64,000 nt of DNA, from contig JAJPHL010000037.1 of NCBI GenBank assembly GCA_021325275.1, positions 124,001 through 188,000 of the forward strand, read 5' to 3'. Source of the DNA: Terriglobia bacterium (lineage in GTDB: Bacteria > Acidobacteriota > Terriglobia > JAJPHL01). Below are positions 2,989 to 37,767 of this stretch, in pieces (the stretch's first letter is position 1; the number at the start of each line of letters is the position of its first letter). A model generated the notes under the pieces. The model was given only the letters and a program-made list of their open reading frames with translations, was not told the origin of the DNA and did no database searches. The position numbers and the translations under genes were made by a program.

Positions 2989-4521
2989 ATGGCCGATGGG
3001 CGAGTCCTCGTTGTCGGAGCCGGGCCAACCGGTTTGAATTTGGCGCTGAGTTTGGCGCGGCGCGGCGTTGCGGTCCGGTTGATTTCCGACGCCAGCGGTC
3101 CAGGTGAACACTCCCGCGCGATGGTCGTGCAGGCGCGCACGCTCGAATTCTACGACCAATTCGGTTTCGCCGACGAAGTCGTGCGAGCCGGAATCCCGGG
3201 CGCGAACGTTCATTGGAGAGAAGGCGGCCCGGGCGGTCACGAGATTCGCTCGGTCAGTTTCAAGGATTTAGGCGAAGGCCTCAGCCCATTCCCGTTCCCG
3301 CTGAATTATCCGCAAGACGATCACGAGCGATTTCTCGTCGACAAGCTGCGCGAGTCGGGCGTCAACGTCGAATGGGGATCGCGCCTCGCGGGCTTTGAGC
3401 AACTTCCTCGCGGAATCATTGCCGCCATCGCGTACGAGGGCCGCACCGAGCACGCCGAGTTCGCCTACCTTGGCGGCTGCGACGGCGCGCACAGCGCGGT
3501 GCGCGAGACGTTGGGTATCGGATTTCAAGGCGGCACGTACGAGCAGCTCTTCTATGTCGCCGACGTTAAGATTAATCGGGGATTCGATCAGGATTTGTAC
3601 TTCAACATCGGTGAACACATTCTCACTTTGATGTTCCCGGTACGGTCGAGCGGAATGCAGCGTTTGATCGGTCTCGTGCCGCCGGAGCTTTCCACGCGCG
3701 ACGATTTGAAGTTCGAGGACATTCGCGCGCAGCAAGAACAACTGTTGGATGTGAAGGTGACCGAGGTGAATTGGTTCTCGGCGTATCGCGTGCATCATCG
3801 CGTGGCCGAGCATTTTCGCGCCGGCCGGGCGTTTCTGCTGGGCGACGCCGCGCACATTCACAGCCCCGTGGGCGGGCAGGGAATGAACACGGGGATCGGC
3901 GACGCGATCAACCTGGGATGGAAACTCGCGCAGGTGTTGCAAGGCCGTGCCGCGGATTCACTGCTTGATACTTACGAGCCCGAGCGCATGGGTTTTGCGC
4001 AAACATTGGTCGCCACGACCGATCGCGCCTTCACGCCGATCGTCGCCGAAGGACTCAAGGGTGAGATTACGCGAAAAATCCTGGGGCCGCTTTTCGTGAC
4101 CGCTGCCACGCGATTCGCGCTAGGACGACACGCGATGTTTCGCCTCGTGTCGCAAACGCGGATTCATTACGCGGATAGTCCGCTGAGCGAAGGACGCGCC
4201 GGCGAAGTGCTTGGCGGCGACCGCCTGCCGTGGTTTCGCATGGACGGCACAAGCAATTTCGCGCCGCTGCGATCGCTCGACTGGCAGGTGCACGTTTACG
4301 GAAAGATCCACGACGCGCTGGTCGCCGCTTGTCGCGAGATGAGTCTGGCGGTTCACGAATTCCTCTGGACCGACGCAGCCGCCGACTGCGGACTTCAGCG
4401 CGACGCAATGTATTTGATCCGCCCCGACGGTCACGTCGCGCTCGCTGCGTCATTGCAAAGCGCCGAGATCGTGAAGAATTTCGCGGACCGTTTCGGTCTC
4501 CGGTTCACGAATCTCCCGTGA
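2989..4521 (+). CDS. FAD-dependent aromatic-type monooxygenase (PHBH/UbiH-like)
   Basis: The 510-residue flavoprotein starts with a Rossmann GxGxxG (VLVVGAGPTGLNLAL, residues ~5-19). It also has the second FAD motif of group A monooxygenases, FLLGDAAHIHSPVGGQGMN at about residues 281-299, and a C-terminal thioredoxin-like domain as in phenol and tetracycline hydroxylases. It is expected to hydroxylate an aromatic or polyketide substrate using NAD(P)H and O2; the substrate cannot be read from the sequence. No pathway genes flank it. The 3' end overlaps the convergent glycosyltransferase by 17 bases. Confidence 0.85.
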   Translation: MADGRVLVVGAGPTGLNLALSLARRGVAVRLISDASGPGEHSRAMVVQARTLEFYDQFGFADEVVRAGIPGANVHWREGGPGGHEIRSVSFKDLGEGLSPFPFPLNYPQDDHERFLVDKLRESGVNVEWGSRLAGFEQLPRGIIAAIAYEGRTEHAEFAYLGGCDGAHSAVRETLGIGFQGGTYEQLFYVADVKINRGFDQDLYFNIGEHILTLMFPVRSSGMQRLIGLVPPELSTRDDLKFEDIRAQQEQLLDVKVTEVNWFSAYRVHHRVAEHFRAGRAFLLGDAAHIHSPVGGQGMNTGIGDAINLGWKLAQVLQGRAADSLLDTYEPERMGFAQTLVATTDRAFTPIVAEGLKGEITRKILGPLFVTAATRFALGRHAMFRLVSQTRIHYADSPLSEGRAGEVLGGDRLPWFRMDGTSNFAPLRSLDWQVHVYGKIHDALVAACREMSLAVHEFLWTDAAADCGLQRDAMYLIRPDGHVALAASLQSAEIVKNFADRFGLRFTNLP

Positions 4522-5350
4522 TCCGTCCCGCTTCATAGGCGATCGTCGCCGCGACGCTCATGAGTCCGAGCACGGCGACGCGCAGCGGTCCGTAGCGGGC
4601 ATCTCTCGCGGTTCGCCGCACGATTTCCCAGCGTTGGCCGAAACCGAGCGGACGCGTCTGACTGAGCGTTTGAAAAACCGCGTAGCTGCGGCCGTACGTC
4701 CACATCTTTCCCAGCCAGTCGCGCGCGCGTTCGATCTCCAGGTGACGAATCGCCATAGTTGGAATGTAGCGCACCGCCGCGCCGCCGTACGCTTGCACGA
4801 CTTTGCTGACGAAAACTGTGTCGCCGCCGCGCTTGAGTTCGTGGAATGGTCCGATGCGGTCGAATACTTCGCGCCGCGTCGCCAGGTTGTTCGTGTATCC
4901 GTACCAGCAGTCGTGCGCGCCGCCTGAAAAAACGTAGAGCGCGCGTTGATGTTCATAATCGGCGGCAATCGCCAGCGCAAAACTCTCGTGCGCGAAGCGG
5001 CGTCCGCCCTGCGCTACCGCCACCGATTGACCGGAGAGAGTCTCGGCGATTCGTGCCAGCCAATCCGGCGCGACTTGGCAATCGGAATCGGTAAACGCCA
5101 GAATCGCGCCGCGTGACGCGCGGACGCCGGCGTTGCGCGCCGCGTAGGATCCGCGCTTTGTCTCGGTGAGCACTACGACGCCGGGAAAACGCCGGGCCAC
5201 CGCGGCGGAATCGTCCTCCGAGGCGTTGTCCACCACGATCACTTCATAGCGATCGCGCGGGAACGACTGTGCCGTCAAGCTCTCCAGGCATTTCGCTAAA
5301 AAGCCAGCCTGATTGAAGCACGGCACGATTACGGAAATGTCCAGCGGCAT
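4505..5350 (-). CDS. Family 2 glycosyltransferase
   Basis: From the ATG at 5350 the protein is 281 residues and opens directly with the GT2 fold: ISVIVPCFNQAGFL, VIVVDNASEDDS, and the DxD-like AFTDSDCQVAPDW that binds metal and nucleotide sugar. A longer frame reaches 5437, but it only adds a basic string lying inside the preceding gene, so I reject it. The C-terminal region has one or two hydrophobic stretches (LRVAVLGLMSVAATIAYEAG), suggesting membrane association. It overlaps the radical SAM gene by 22 bases and is the last gene of a three-gene minus-strand operon. Confidence 0.85.
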   Translation of the reverse strand: MPLDISVIVPCFNQAGFLAKCLESLTAQSFPRDRYEVIVVDNASEDDSAAVARRFPGVVVLTETKRGSYAARNAGVRASRGAILAFTDSDCQVAPDWLARIAETLSGQSVAVAQGGRRFAHESFALAIAADYEHQRALYVFSGGAHDCWYGYTNNLATRREVFDRIGPFHELKRGGDTVFVSKVVQAYGGAAVRYIPTMAIRHLEIERARDWLGKMWTYGRSYAVFQTLSQTRPLGFGQRWEIVRRTARDARYGPLRVAVLGLMSVAATIAYEAGRITGDS

Positions 5351-27974: not shown

Positions 27975-28736
27975 TCAGCGAGCGCGCATCTCCGGCACGG
28001 AAGTAAAACTATCGCGCAAGCTGCGGAACAAATTGAAATAGACGATGTACCAAATCGCGGCGATGCCGTCCTTCAAGCCGATCTTCTTGCCTTCTTCGTA
28101 CGTTCGTCCGTAATAACTGATGGGAACCTCGTAAATCGCGCAGCCGAGCTTCGACACTTTGGCCGCCACCTCGATCTCGAAGCCGAAGCCGCTCGATTCG
28201 ATCCGCATTTTGCGCAAAATGTCGCCGCGAAACGCCTTGTAGCCGGTCTCCACGTCGGTGAGGTTGATGTTGGTGAGCAAATTCGAGAACGTGGTGAGCA
28301 TTTTGTTGGCGAGAAAATGATAGTAGTACAGCACGCGCGCGGCTTTTCTCACCAGGAAACGCGATCCGAAGCAGACGTCGGCGCGTCCCTCGAGGATCGG
28401 TTGAATCACCACGGGGATTTCTTCGGGACTATATTCCAGGTCGGCGTCCTGGATGATCAGAATGTCGCCATGCGTCTCGGCGATTCCCGTGCGCAGCGCG
28501 CCCGTCTTGCCTTGATTGCGGACGTGACGCAGCACGCGCATGCGGGGATAGATCGCCGCGAGCCGTTGCGCTTCTTCCTGCGTACCGTCGGTGGAGCAAT
28601 CGTCGACCACCACGATTTCCAGCAGTCCCGGGACGCGATGCAGCGCTTCGATCACCGTTCCCAATGTTTTTCTTTCGTTGAAAACCGGCACAATCACCGA
28701 GAGAACTTCGGGAGTCACCGGGGGCGTTTCGCTCAT
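27975..28736 (-). CDS. Family 2 glycosyltransferase (dolichol-phosphate mannosyltransferase-like)
   Basis: The 253-residue protein has the DPM1-type GT2 motifs: LSVIVPVFNERKTL, EIVVVDDCSTDGT, GKTGALRTGIAETHGDILIIQDADLEYSPEEI (DAD metal site), and VETGYKAFRGDIL. It likely transfers a sugar from a nucleotide donor to a polyprenyl phosphate at the inner face of the membrane. No transmembrane helix is evident; the segment IAAIWYIVYFNLFRSL near the C-terminus may be an amphipathic anchor. It is divergent from the O-antigen ligase-like gene with only 34-70 bases between them. Confidence 0.88.
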   Translation of the reverse strand: MSETPPVTPEVLSVIVPVFNERKTLGTVIEALHRVPGLLEIVVVDDCSTDGTQEEAQRLAAIYPRMRVLRHVRNQGKTGALRTGIAETHGDILIIQDADLEYSPEEIPVVIQPILEGRADVCFGSRFLVRKAARVLYYYHFLANKMLTTFSNLLTNINLTDVETGYKAFRGDILRKMRIESSGFGFEIEVAAKVSKLGCAIYEVPISYYGRTYEEGKKIGLKDGIAAIWYIVYFNLFRSLRDSFTSVPEMRAR

Positions 28737-28770
28737 AGAACAGGGTTCATGCTAGCATAACCGATAGGCG

Positions 28771-30126
28771 TTGTCCTCAAGAGCGCCGGTATCGAGCAAA
28801 CCAGCGATGGGCTTTTTTCTCACCTGCGTCTACATCTTCTTCTCGTTTGTACGGGTCTTCGACTTGTATCCGGAGCTGGCAGACGTGCGCGCGATGTTGA
28901 TCCTGGCGATTATCACGTTGACCGTCAGCATCGGCGAGTGGTCGTCGAGCCCGCGGAAGAAGCGTTCCTCTTTGCGGCAGGTGCAGATTGCGCTCACCGT
29001 GGTGTTCTTCGGCTTGGGTGTTTTCGGCTGGCTCAGGATCGGGTGGTGGGAAGAAGCGCAAAATGCCTTCAACAGCCTGAACATCATTCTAGGCGGATTC
29101 GTCATGCTGGTGATGAACCTCACTACGCTCAAGCGCGTCAAGACCATCGTCTGTTTGTTGATCGGATGCTGCGTGATCATGACCATCCAGGGCATGGCGG
29201 CCTACTACTACGATTGGCAGCGCGATTTGTTCGTGCTGGAATGGCATCCTCCCGAGGACGAACCCGACTTGGTGCGCGATCCCGACGATCCCGACATTCC
29301 GCGCATGCGCAACATTGGCTTCCTGAACGATCCCAACGATCTCGCGCAGACGCTGGCCATGTGCTTGCCGTTCCTGGGGATTTATTGGCGGAAGAAAAAA
29401 CATTTCCAAAACTGGCTGGTCGTGGCGCCGATCGCCGCGTACCTGGGATGGGGTATTTTTCTGACGCACTCGCGCGGTGGCCTCGTCGCCGTCGGCGTCA
29501 TGGTCTTGATGGCGCTGCGAGAACGAATAGGACGCATCAAGGCCGGGATCCTCACGACCTTGATGGTGATTGTAGCGGTGGCGTTCAACGCAACCGGAGG
29601 ACGCGCGATGAAGGATGACTCGTCAGAAGCGCGCGTGGAAGCGTGGGCGTCCGGCATCATCATGCTGGAACGAAACCCGTTGTTCGGCGTGAACTACGGG
29701 AATTTTTCCGAAGCGCACAGCCGCGGCCTTACCGCGCACAATTCGTTCGTCTTGTGTTTCGCCGAAGCGGGGCTGATCGGTTACTTTGTCTGGATGTCGC
29801 TCTTGACAACGAGTTACATCGAGCTGCAGAGGCTCATGAAGTTGCCCGCGGCGGACGAAGAAGACCTCGAAATCCGAAGGTGGGCCCAAGGCACACGTTT
29901 GGCGTTGACCACGTTTCTCGCGGCAGCGTTTTTCCTTTCGCGAACGTATATCCTGACGCTCTACATGCTCGTCGCGATTGTTGTCGCGCTGGAAGACATC
30001 GTCAAGCGAAAATACCCGGTTTACCGGCCCAAGCCCGTCAACATTTGGGCCAAGTACACCGTCGCTTGGCAGGCGATCACCATTTTCATGGTTTGGATGG
30101 CCGTGAAGGTTAACGGGATCACCTAG
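28771..30126 (+). CDS. O-antigen ligase/polymerase-like membrane protein (Wzy_C type)
   Basis: The ~450-residue protein has about ten hydrophobic segments and a central periplasmic loop rich in Asp and Pro (EWHPPEDEPDLVRDPDDPD). The Wzy_C/WaaL signature region is ILTHSRGG-like (GIFLTHSRGGLVAVGVMVLM), followed by NPLFGVNYGNF and TAHNSFVLCFAEAGLIGYFVW. Such proteins polymerise or ligate polysaccharide repeat units on undecaprenyl diphosphate. The start is uncertain: TTG at 28771 or ATG at 28807, with neither having a clear ribosome site; the ATG leaves more room for the divergent promoter. Confidence 0.82.
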   Translation: MSSRAPVSSKPAMGFFLTCVYIFFSFVRVFDLYPELADVRAMLILAIITLTVSIGEWSSSPRKKRSSLRQVQIALTVVFFGLGVFGWLRIGWWEEAQNAFNSLNIILGGFVMLVMNLTTLKRVKTIVCLLIGCCVIMTIQGMAAYYYDWQRDLFVLEWHPPEDEPDLVRDPDDPDIPRMRNIGFLNDPNDLAQTLAMCLPFLGIYWRKKKHFQNWLVVAPIAAYLGWGIFLTHSRGGLVAVGVMVLMALRERIGRIKAGILTTLMVIVAVAFNATGGRAMKDDSSEARVEAWASGIIMLERNPLFGVNYGNFSEAHSRGLTAHNSFVLCFAEAGLIGYFVWMSLLTTSYIELQRLMKLPAADEEDLEIRRWAQGTRLALTTFLAAAFFLSRTYILTLYMLVAIVVALEDIVKRKYPVYRPKPVNIWAKYTVAWQAITIFMVWMAVKVNGIT

Positions 30127-30175
30127 TAGGCGCGACTCGCGCGAACGTGCTGCGGAGCCCGTGACGACGACTCCC

Positions 30176-32863
30176 TTAGGCTAATAGGTTTGCCGTCAAA
30201 TGCGCCGAAGTCTGCATTGCCACAACTTCTTTCGCCGGTTTTCCCGTAGCGCGTTGCCATGCCGCCAGCGCGAGCAGCGGAAAATAATGCCGGTACAAGT
30301 GATACGAGAGATAAAACACGTTCGGAAATCCCGTGCCGGTCATTAATTCCTCATCCCACGTTCCCAGCGCGTTTTGATGTTCCACCAGCCACTGGACCCC
30401 GCGGCGCGCGGCTTCACCGGCGCTTTCTCCCGCCGCGTCGAGACCAAGCAGGGCCCACGCGGTTTGCGACGGAGTGCTCTCCGCGCGCACGAAATGATGC
30501 AATTGGTAGCCGGCGCAGCTTTCACCCCATCCACCGTCCGAGTTTTGCACAGACCGCAGCCACGAGGCACCGGCGCGAATTTGCTCGCCGCATTCCGCGC
30601 CGCTGGCGCGCAAGCCTCGCATCGCCAGAAACGTCCCGTAGGTATAGTTGACACCCCAACGTCCATACCAACTGCCGTCGTGACGCTGATGCGTTTGCAA
30701 ATAACGCACGCCCCGCGCGATCGCCGGATTCTCATGCGTATATCCGCGCCGGCACAGCGCTTCGATCACGCGTCCGGTGATATCGGGACACGTGGGATCG
30801 AGCATGGCGTTGTGATCCGCGAACGGAACTTTGCTCAGCACTTGCCAGTTGTTGTCCACGTCGAACGCGGCCCATCCGCCGTCGGATGATTGCATGCCCA
30901 GCAGCCACGTGATCGCCCGGCGCTCGGCGCGCGTTTGCCGCTCGAGGTCGGAAGCGTTGGCGTGTTGCAGCGCCAGCAGCACCATCGCCGTGTCGTCGAT
31001 GTCGGGATAGAACTCGTTGGCAAATTCGAACGCCCAACCGCTCGGCGGTAGATTCGGCCGCTTCACCGACCAATCTCCCTTGCGGCGCACTTCGCGATCG
31101 AGCAACCAATCCGCGGCCGCGCGCATCGCGTTCGGTTCGCCCGCGCCGAGTTCGCCAAGTGCGAACATCGAGATCGCCGTGTCCCACACCGGCGACAAGC
31201 TCGGTTGAAACTCCATGCGGCCGCCGGCGCGAATCGTTTGGGTAAAATCGCCGGGCGTCTCAACGGCCACGCTCCCCGCCGATGCCGCATGTGCAGCTTC
31301 GCGAAACAGCATCAAACCTTCGAATTGCCGCAGCGTCTCCACAAAATCGGGATGATCGCGTTCGTAGCCGAGCGCGTCCATGGCCATCAGCGCGTACATC
31401 ATCGAGGGATAGATCGCGCCGACGCCGTCCGACGACCGCATGTGATCGACGGTCCACTGCTCGGCGGCGCGAATCGCTTTAGCGCGAATTTCCTTGAGTC
31501 CACGGCGCTCCCACAGTTTCAGCACGCGATCCGCTTGGTTGAACACCGCGGAAATGCGATCGCGCTTCGGCAGCGCCAATTTTTTCCCCGGCAAATACAA
31601 TTCGTCGACGTTCATTCCGCCAGGAGTCGGCCGCTGAGCGCCCAGCGCCTGGATGATCGAGAGCGGCATGATGATCACGCGGCTCCACGACGACATTTCG
31701 TAGAGCAAATTACCGGGCATCAGCACCAACTCGGGCGGAATACTCGGCGCGGCGTGCCGTGGAAACATTCCAAACAAACTGAGATTGATCCGCGTGTAGC
31801 TGTTGGCCGCCTGCAATCCGCCCAGCGCCAGCACGCGGCGCCGCGCGCGCTGCATTTCCGGCTGCGACGGGTCGCATCCACCCATCTTCAGCGCCGTATA
31901 GGCGCGTGCGGTCGCGCTGACTTCCGATGGTCCACCGGGATATAAGTTCCATCCGCCATCCGGCAGTTGGCGATCGAGCAACGTCGCCAGCGCCATATCG
32001 ATTTTCGCGCGCCACGGCGGATTCCAGTGCGCGCCCTCGGGGGGGTAGAGCCACATGGCCAGAAAAATAAAATCCGATTCGAGCGTAGTGTCGGCGGTGA
32101 GATGCCCGTGCCAGTATCCCGCACGATGCTGCCAACGCAAGAGTGTGTGCGCGGCGGCTTGCGCGGCTTGCTGGGCTTGCGGCGCGAGTTCGCCAAAATC
32201 TTCTTGCGACGATGCCAGAATCGCGGCGACGTCGGCGAAGGGAATTTGCTGAACGATTTGCCGGGCGTCCGCCGGCTCGCCGCCTTGTTCGATCAAGGCA
32301 TGGATTTCGCGGACGATCGACGCACGGCGCTCCGGGGGCGGCGGCGCGAGACCCAGCGCTTCGCTGAACCACAAGCCTTCCGCCGCCAGGCGCGCGATCA
32401 AGGCGCGCGACGGGTCGATGCCGTCGTGATCCAAATTGTTTTGCCAATCGCGGTAGACTTCGCGCAAGGGGTCAAGCAGGGCGGGCGCGCTGGTCATCGC
32501 CACCATCAGAATCGCGGCGATTTCGTGGCCTTGCAGCGGCCGCAGCTCGCCGGATTCGTCGTCGGTGGAATCGGTTTCGCCCGGGCGGGCGTGGTTTTCA
32601 AGCGCCGCCGCAACAAATGATCGCGTATGGGAACCGGGTCCGGCGGAACGCGCTCGAACCACGCTCGTGTCGCGACTGAGCCGCATCATTAAGAGACCCA
32701 CCAGTCCCTCGATCAGCTGTTCCTTACCGGCGTAGTGGTACAGTAGACCACCCTTAGAGACACCGGCTTCGCGGGCTACTCGATCTAGGGTTAAGGAATC
32801 GACACCTTCTCGTATGATTAGGTCGATGGCGGCTTGGAGAACGGCTTCCCGTGTACTGGCCAT
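30176..32863 (-). CDS. shc: TetR-family regulator fused to squalene-hopene cyclase
   Basis: One uninterrupted frame of 895 residues from the ATG at 32863. Residues ~1-62 are a TetR DNA-binding domain (REAVLQAAIDLIIREG, LTLDRVAREAGVSKGGLLYHY, KEQLIEGLV); residues ~63-215 are an all-helical TetR-type ligand domain ending ASIVREIHALIEQ. From about residue 230 it is a full squalene-hopene cyclase: LRWQHRAGYWHGHLTADTT, PDGGWNLYPGG, catalytic DIDD at 621-624 in the DxDD context PDIDDTA, and QW motifs (QSSDGGWAAFD, QNSDGGWGE). The cyclase part (~665 residues) matches free-standing enzymes in length. It should convert squalene to hopene or diplopterol at the membrane, and may repress its own promoter. 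No squalene-synthesis genes are adjacent. The longer frame to 32899 would place the operator in coding sequence and is rejected. Confidence 0.88.
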   Translation of the reverse strand: MASTREAVLQAAIDLIIREGVDSLTLDRVAREAGVSKGGLLYHYAGKEQLIEGLVGLLMMRLSRDTSVVRARSAGPGSHTRSFVAAALENHARPGETDSTDDESGELRPLQGHEIAAILMVAMTSAPALLDPLREVYRDWQNNLDHDGIDPSRALIARLAAEGLWFSEALGLAPPPPERRASIVREIHALIEQGGEPADARQIVQQIPFADVAAILASSQEDFGELAPQAQQAAQAAAHTLLRWQHRAGYWHGHLTADTTLESDFIFLAMWLYPPEGAHWNPPWRAKIDMALATLLDRQLPDGGWNLYPGGPSEVSATARAYTALKMGGCDPSQPEMQRARRRVLALGGLQAANSYTRINLSLFGMFPRHAAPSIPPELVLMPGNLLYEMSSWSRVIIMPLSIIQALGAQRPTPGGMNVDELYLPGKKLALPKRDRISAVFNQADRVLKLWERRGLKEIRAKAIRAAEQWTVDHMRSSDGVGAIYPSMMYALMAMDALGYERDHPDFVETLRQFEGLMLFREAAHAASAGSVAVETPGDFTQTIRAGGRMEFQPSLSPVWDTAISMFALGELGAGEPNAMRAAADWLLDREVRRKGDWSVKRPNLPPSGWAFEFANEFYPDIDDTAMVLLALQHANASDLERQTRAERRAITWLLGMQSSDGGWAAFDVDNNWQVLSKVPFADHNAMLDPTCPDITGRVIEALCRRGYTHENPAIARGVRYLQTHQRHDGSWYGRWGVNYTYGTFLAMRGLRASGAECGEQIRAGASWLRSVQNSDGGWGESCAGYQLHHFVRAESTPSQTAWALLGLDAAGESAGEAARRGVQWLVEHQNALGTWDEELMTGTGFPNVFYLSYHLYRHYFPLLALAAWQRATGKPAKEVVAMQTSAHLTANLLA

Positions 32864-32870
32864 GCCGGGC

Positions 32871-32899
32871 AGTGTACCGTCCGGACGGTAACTTGTCAA
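32871..32899 (-). promoter_or_regulatory. Promoter with TetR-type operator upstream of the TetR-cyclase fusion
   Basis: On the minus strand: TTGACA (32899-32894), 17 bases, TACACT (32876-32871), then 7 bases to the ATG at 32863. The spacer and first two bases of the -10 form a perfect 16-bp palindrome, TACCGTCCGGACGGTA (32875-32890), the usual type of TetR operator. Bound repressor would block both boxes. With +1 at or next to the ATG, the mRNA would be leaderless, and no Shine-Dalgarno is present. Confidence 0.7.
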
Positions 32900-32993
32900 C
32901 GGGATACTTATTCGAGTGGCACCAGCCTACTTTCAGGTCCATTTTCGACTTGGAGAACCCCGGCAGCTTGGTGTTAACTGTAACGGACACATT

Positions 32994-34012
32994 ATGAAAC
33001 GTGCGTTGATAACGGGCATCACCGGACAAGACGGGTCTTATTTGGCGGAGTTTCTGATCGAAAAGGGCTATGAAGTTCACGGCGTGATCCGCCGCGCCAG
33101 TTCCTTCAACACCGAGCGGCTGGAGCATCTCTATCAGGACCCGCACACGCGCGGGGCTCGCATGAAACTGCACTACGGCGACCTCAGCGACTCGGTGAAT
33201 CTGGTCAAACTGCTGCACAACTTGAAGCCCGACGAAATCTATAACCTCGGCGCGCAGAGTCACGTGCGCGTCAGCTTCGATATCCCCGAGTACACGGCCG
33301 ATATCGGAGGACTCGGCACGATCCGCATTCTGGAGGCGATCCGCGAAGCGCAGGTGCGGCCGCGTTTCTATCAAGCGTCGTCGAGCGAAATGTTCGGGAA
33401 GGTCGCCGAGATTCCGCAGCGCGAGACCACGCCGTTTCATCCGCGCAGTCCTTACGCGGTGGCCAAAGTTTTTTCGTATTGGGCCACGGTGAATTATCGC
33501 GAAAGCTACAATCTGCACGCGTGCAACGGAATCTTGTTCAATCACGAATCGCCGCGGCGCGGCGACACCTTTGTGACGCGCAAGATTACGCGAGCGGTCG
33601 CGTACATCAAAGCGGGATTGCAGGACAAACTGTTTCTCGGCAATCTTGACGCCAAGCGCGATTGGGGATACGCCAAGGAATACGTGGAAGCGATGTGGCT
33701 GATGCTGCAACAAGACCAGCCCGACGACTACGTCATCGCGACGGGTGAGACGCACTCGGTGAAGGAGTTTTGCGAAGAGGCATTCGGTCACGTGGATCTC
33801 GACTGGAGCAAGTATGTGGAGATCGACGAGCGCTATTTTCGTCCCGCCGAGGTGGACCTTCTCATTGGCGATGCGTCGAAGGCGAAAAACGTTCTCGGCT
33901 GGGAGCCGAAAGTGAAGTTTAAGGAACTGGTGCGCCTGATGGTCGACGCGGATGTGGAACACTTGGAAGGCAAACTCGCCGGCCGCGTGAAGCGCGCCGA
34001 TGGTCGCCACAC

Positions 34013-34016
<4 letters not shown>
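32994..34016 (+). CDS. gmd: GDP-mannose 4,6-dehydratase
   Basis: The protein is 340 residues from the ATG at 32994. The N-terminal NAD(P) motif [18 protein letters not shown], the [18 protein letters not shown] segment, active-site SSSEMFG, and YAVAK (SDR Tyr/Lys pair, YxxxK) are all typical, as are [19 protein letters not shown] and [16 protein letters not shown]. It makes GDP-4-keto-6-deoxymannose, the precursor of GDP-L-fucose and related sugars. The 78-base upstream in-frame extension to 32916 has no family match. The stop codon shares bases with the stop of the convergent methyltransferase-GT2 gene. Confidence 0.95.

Positions 34017-37767
<3,751 letters not shown>

Follow-up and report, generated by a model that had tools for sequence, protein, structure and literature searches.

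A single open frame in the window, the 64,000-nucleotide stretch of Terriglobia bacterium DNA analysed here, joins a TetR-type repressor to a squalene–hopene cyclase (SHC) and raises the question of whether a lipid enzyme and the control of its own gene can reside in one polypeptide. The gene (30176..32863 (-)) runs from an ATG at 32863-32861 to a stop at 30176-30178, has zero internal stops and encodes 895 amino acids, laid out as a complete TetR repressor (residues 1 to about 200) followed by a complete SHC (residues about 228–875). An earlier note on this DNA had claimed the same arrangement, with a DIDD motif at residues 621–624, and both claims are borne out by the domain assignments given below. 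Its product of about 97 kDa requires a minor correction to a predicted 98.6 kDa, and the interruption it had considered, a stop between the two parts, is absent from the frame. The note knew of no described protein of this kind, and no description of a TetR–SHC protein or operon was found in the open-licence literature searched, although a prior automated annotation is possible. That literature likewise yielded neither a dedicated repressor of a hopanoid cyclase nor a transcription factor fused to any polycyclic-terpene cyclase; one apparent TetR lead (PMC5462960) was discarded, as 'tetr' there stands for tetrafunctionalised.

Domains of the fused frame

All four domains of the fusion scored above the curated Pfam cut-offs. 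The repressor part comprises the TetR_N helix-turn-helix (HTH; PF00440, residues 9–52, 32708..32839 (-)), matched at 7.8e-12 with 45.2 bits against a cut-off of 24, and the TetR_C_28 ligand/dimerisation domain (PF17937, residues 113–192, 32288..32527 (-)), matched at 1.3e-23 with 83.6 bits. The recognition region contains SKGGLLYH at residues 36–43, and S36–H43 is invariant in the fused TetRs and in two aligned TetRs from unfused operons. A linker of low identity (residues about 201–234, 32162..32263 (-)) comprises the former TetR 3′ end and the SHC start region. The SHC part (residues 235–870, 30254..32161 (-)), identified by Pfam, NCBIfam and a Foldseek match to 1sqc, contains SQHop_cyclase_N (residues 235–519, 8.6e-85) and SQHop_cyclase_C (residues 556–870, 4.3e-133) and scores 586 bits, over a cut-off of 431, with the NCBIfam squalene--hopene cyclase equivalog TIGR01507.

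The SHC part aligns over its whole length with the SHC of Alicyclobacillus acidocaldarius and includes the active-site block FPNVFYLSYHLY. Counterparts of F365, F605, Y609 and Y612 (A. acidocaldarius numbering) are present, and the catalytic DIDD and the active-site aromatics are conserved. Domains, DIDD and aromatics together identify the fused part as a predicted squalene–hopene cyclase, the product of which could differ. The AlphaFold2 (AF2) model of the whole chain matched 1sqc with a Foldseek TMt of 0.92, so that fold, DxDD motif, QW-like motifs and active-site residues are shared with the A. acidocaldarius enzyme; the fusion differs in having an N-terminal TetR and in being a second SHC beside an ordinary one. 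The window cyclase also contains an insertion of about 25 residues (residues about 524–548) that is absent from all other aligned fused relatives.

The full-length model is of low confidence in the TetR C-domain and linker, whereas a TetR-only AF2 model reached a pLDDT of 88.6. Foldseek matches of the TetR part include CgmR and MtrR. Multidrug repressors, including MtrR in a structure with steroids, are represented among the fold matches; this likeness suggests that the ligand of the TetR part may be hydrophobic and perhaps polycyclic. With the TetR_C_28-type TetR/AcrR repressors of RND pumps (CgmR and MtrR by fold) the repressor part shares fold, HTH and self-operator. Unlike them, it is joined to an enzyme and would control a cyclase rather than a pump.

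Conservation of the joint

Fused genes were found at 15 further loci in two phyla. In a scan of the genomes of 84,980 species, full-length fused relatives were found in 13 Nitrospirota and two Bryobacterales metagenome-assembled genomes (MAGs), giving 16 fused genes with that of the window. The TetR and SHC parts share one frame in these relatives as far as the contigs reach (L042, L085 and L087 end at a contig edge). Within Nitrospirales, a TetR of the fused type occurs in 16 of 236 genomes, always in a long frame (569–859 amino acids). The fusion is rare and patchy: when 396 genomes were sampled evenly across the window's phylum, none but that of the window contained it whole. The relatives of its SHC indicate that the window's genome is probably acidobacterial.

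Nearly all of the sequences compared come from MAGs and an unfused TetR–SHC state exists, so the joining of two genes by an assembly or sequencing error deserves consideration. The joint is nevertheless common to independent assemblies of two phyla, with two Nitrospirales fused frames lying on contigs of at least 0.68 and at least 2.7 Mb, and codon-level constraint is seen on both of its sides. Pairwise dN/dS was about 0.01–0.16 for the HTH, 0.04–0.09 for the cyclase, 0.08–0.36 for the TetR C-domain and 0.06–0.65 for the linker, the C-domain evolving faster than the HTH and cyclase. These values point to strong purifying selection on HTH and cyclase, such that selection appears to hold both the DNA-binding and the catalytic ends. 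On the independent assemblies and the purifying selection the artefact was rejected, and we give it practically no credence.

The same rates bear on whether the TetR part is a relic, retained only for dimerisation or for placement at the membrane or nucleoid after regulation was lost. The rapid divergence of the C-domain and linker would fit such decay, while an HTH conserved like the catalytic domain, together with an operator (described below) preserved wherever the TetR domain is, makes it very improbable.

A genuine joint in the DNA could still be partly nominal in the cell if an internal start gave rise to free cyclase in addition to, or instead of, the fusion, and here the relatives differ among themselves. 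The former SHC start is recognizable in the linker as M-R-E/D in 9 of the 13 Nitrospirota genes and in both Bryobacterales, which thus retain the ATG too, and as M-K-E in a tenth Nitrospirota gene. In these 10 of 13 Nitrospirota genes the in-frame ATG is the only one with AGGAG or AGGAA in front of it at the spacing of a ribosome site, and it matches the SHC start of unfused operons; the 10 genes may accordingly make free cyclase besides the fusion. The relic MRE start is lost from the window gene, in which neither ATG nor GTG occurs between residue 190 and the cyclase core; the TTG at residue 190 has no evident ribosome site and that at 242 is inside the conserved domain. Separate translation of the cyclase in the window, which the earlier note had named as a possible objection, was therefore rejected for want of a start codon. 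Three Nitrospirota genes (L037, L086 and L087) have likewise lost the relic start and yet retain the fused frame. In these and in the window the start was lost and the fusion kept, so selection there preserves the fusion as such, and we judge it improbable that the family as a whole works as two proteins.

Probable operator and probable origin from an operon

Immediately 5′ of the fused gene is a perfect 16-bp palindrome, TACCGTCCGGACGGTA (32875..32890 (.)), with exactly the sequence that the earlier note had reported. The palindrome takes up the spacer of a sigma70-like promoter and overlaps its -10 box; this promoter consists of TTGACA (-35; 32894..32899 (-)) and TACACT (-10; 32871..32876 (-)) separated by 17 nt. 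This window promoter has 10 of 12 matches, one such promoter being found against 0.2 expected, and the ATG follows 7 nt downstream as a leaderless-type start. A common palindrome of about 16–22 bp lies just 5′ of the ATG in all 16 fused genes, flanked by otherwise unrelated sequence; it takes the form GTTACCGTCCGGACGGTACACT in the window and, for example, TATACCGGCTAGACGGTATAGT elsewhere. A TTGAnn/TAYANT-like promoter surrounds it in nearly all loci. Since the TetR ATG is located 6–9 nt past the -10 box in most loci, leaderless transcription of the TetR–SHC genes is implied. Both Bryobacterales have their nearest ATG 1 nt past the -10 box, and their true start is less certain. L040 and L085 contain a second operator-like copy in tandem (4947-5000 in each), near or over a second -10-like box.

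Whole-genome searches of 12 genomes gave a single exact match to the operator pattern in each, located in every case at the fused gene. The pattern was built from the fused-gene sites, so that finding these is by construction, which the absence of further copies is not. Five unfused TetR–SHC operons that had taken no part in motif building also have the operator at the expected place, directly before the TetR ATG, where the best strand scored 27–34 bits against at most about 9 elsewhere in the loci. A literature search with the exact operator sequence returned nothing relevant. The palindrome is very probably, as judged from sequence, the operator of the fusion protein.

The same searches speak to a wider role, in which the protein would regulate hopanoid or envelope genes beyond its own. 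Several targets are frequent among TetR proteins, sites with one mismatch do exist, and the operator is about 100 bp from a divergent GDP-mannose dehydratase gene, with which the fused gene shares the intergenic region. The one-mismatch sites, however, are about as common as those of a reversed-pattern control, exact sites number one per genome and the neighbouring genes vary among loci. A wider regulon is on this evidence unlikely.

The five operons (L247, L250, L274, L275 and L276) represent an unfused state, in which a stand-alone TetR of the same subfamily is directly followed by the SHC. The two genes overlap as TAATG in L247, TGATG in L250 and L274 and ATGA in L276, and abut as TAGATG in L275. 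TetR subfamily, SHC branch, operator and leaderless-type start are as in the fusion, the difference being two proteins from overlapping or abutting genes. The SHC tree unites the fused genes in one group with a support of 99, which includes one stand-alone SHC (L084); the L276 operon falls just outside this group and the other operons further out. Placing all fused SHCs in one clade was not rejected and fitted better (p-AU 0.884), while a single clade of all fused and operon SHCs was rejected (p-AU 0.004), meaning that stand-alone SHCs are interspersed and that loss or gain of the TetR happened repeatedly. The TetR and SHC trees agree in their order, Bryobacterales and then the window plus Nitrospirota, with the operons outside; the TetR tree has one long branch, L270, that is unreliably placed. 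The simplest reading is a single fusion from an overlapping TetR–SHC operon, followed by transfer between phyla.

The earlier interpretation, an enzyme with its transcriptional control in one molecule, is supported in part, with amendments: the fusion is a conserved family and not a one-off, the family would have begun as an overlapping gene pair, and the genome also contains an ordinary SHC. The surviving unfused state illustrates a stepwise route, in which an efflux-type repressor first came to lie 5′ of a lipid enzyme and later became part of the same protein. TetR kin in L239, L240, L241, L277 and L278 are stand-alone, have ACCGTCYRGACGGT-type self-operators and are located directly 5′ of HlyD/AcrB or outer-membrane efflux genes. 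In L277 the repressor (4269-4916 (-)), with the operator TATACCGTCCGGACGGTACAGT, adjoins an RND pump and may be a surviving relative of the pump regulator that gave rise to the SHC repressor.

The stand-alone SHC of L084 (5001-6881 (+)), within or beside the fused clade, starts in overlap with the 3′ end of an unrelated, non-TetR gene. This state could reflect loss of the repressor or a stage before the TetR was gained. Three-frame reading and tblastn found no pseudogene or relic TetR 5′ of the closest stand-alone SHCs (L084 and L044). An apparent 5′ extension with stops in G301 was dismissed, as a profile search gave no TetR-like open reading frame in its locus (L245), and L246 (G454), which reaches the contig end, was left unclassed.

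Predicted self-control and genomic setting

Given a predicted operator of its own within its own promoter and a fusion preserved in two phyla, we consider it likely that the gene product is a second SHC that represses its own gene, a TetR-based 'trigger enzyme'. The protein would dimerise through its TetR part, and the dimer would bind and block its own promoter, so that the level of enzyme would set its own transcription. TetR proteins occasionally activate. Fusion would fix the ratio of repressor to enzyme at 1:1 and place sensor and enzyme together. Repression could end on binding of a hydrophobic, perhaps polycyclic compound, such as a lipid, squalene, a hopanoid or a membrane-active toxin, in the TetR pocket, or alternatively on transfer of the molecule to the membrane by its cyclase part. 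We give relief of repression by a pocket ligand about an even chance, hold a PutA-like release through engagement of membrane or substrate by the cyclase to be possible but less probable, and think plain concentration feedback without a ligand rather unlikely. Release of DNA through squalene or membrane binding, suggested in the earlier note, is no more likely than the action of a small hydrophobic ligand on the TetR pocket. It is a tentative proposal that the fused repressor responds directly to the substrate, product or membrane state of the cyclase, the enzyme itself thus sensing and controlling hopanoid synthesis; if true, this would be a direct molecular link from hopanoid chemistry to gene control.

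PutA and BirA, which use ribbon-helix-helix or winged-helix domains, offer the nearest parallel. The proline utilisation flavoenzyme PutA is also the put repressor and the biotin ligase BirA the bio repressor, and both are trigger enzymes (PMC6978683). Like them, the fusion is predicted to combine in one polypeptide a metabolic enzyme and a repressor that acts, by binding DNA, on its own gene or pathway; unlike them, it joins a complete TetR, with its own ligand domain, to a terpene cyclase. The likeness is one of principle and not of sequence, and by this analogy the fusion would work as PutA and BirA do, yet with a new pairing of domains. It offers a directly testable system of one gene and one operator.

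At least one stand-alone SHC is encoded in the window's genome and in nearly all fused genomes searched, none being found in G064, and the fused enzyme therefore represents an extra cyclase, predicted to be under separate control and to supplement the ordinary SHC on demand. Of 9 genomes checked for HpnH, 8 gave a match above the cut-off, and some of these have it on one contig with the ordinary SHC. Hopanes count as major biomarkers in geology, and the nitrite-oxidising Nitrospirales are among the marine hopanoid makers, so hopane records would be easier to read if it were known when such a second, self-controlled cyclase is expressed. Marine Nitrospirales have been reported to contain shc and hpnH, with no mention of the fusion (PMC10579370).

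The surroundings of the fused gene (27975-36405) are devoted to surface polysaccharide and are not a hopanoid cluster. The neighbours are a Wzy_C/O-antigen ligase, a family-2 glycosyltransferase (GT2), the divergent GDP-mannose 4,6-dehydratase and an epimerase. Another single-frame fusion is found at 34013-35488 (-), where a SAM methyltransferase (residues about 41–192) precedes a family-2 glycosyltransferase (residues 245–406).
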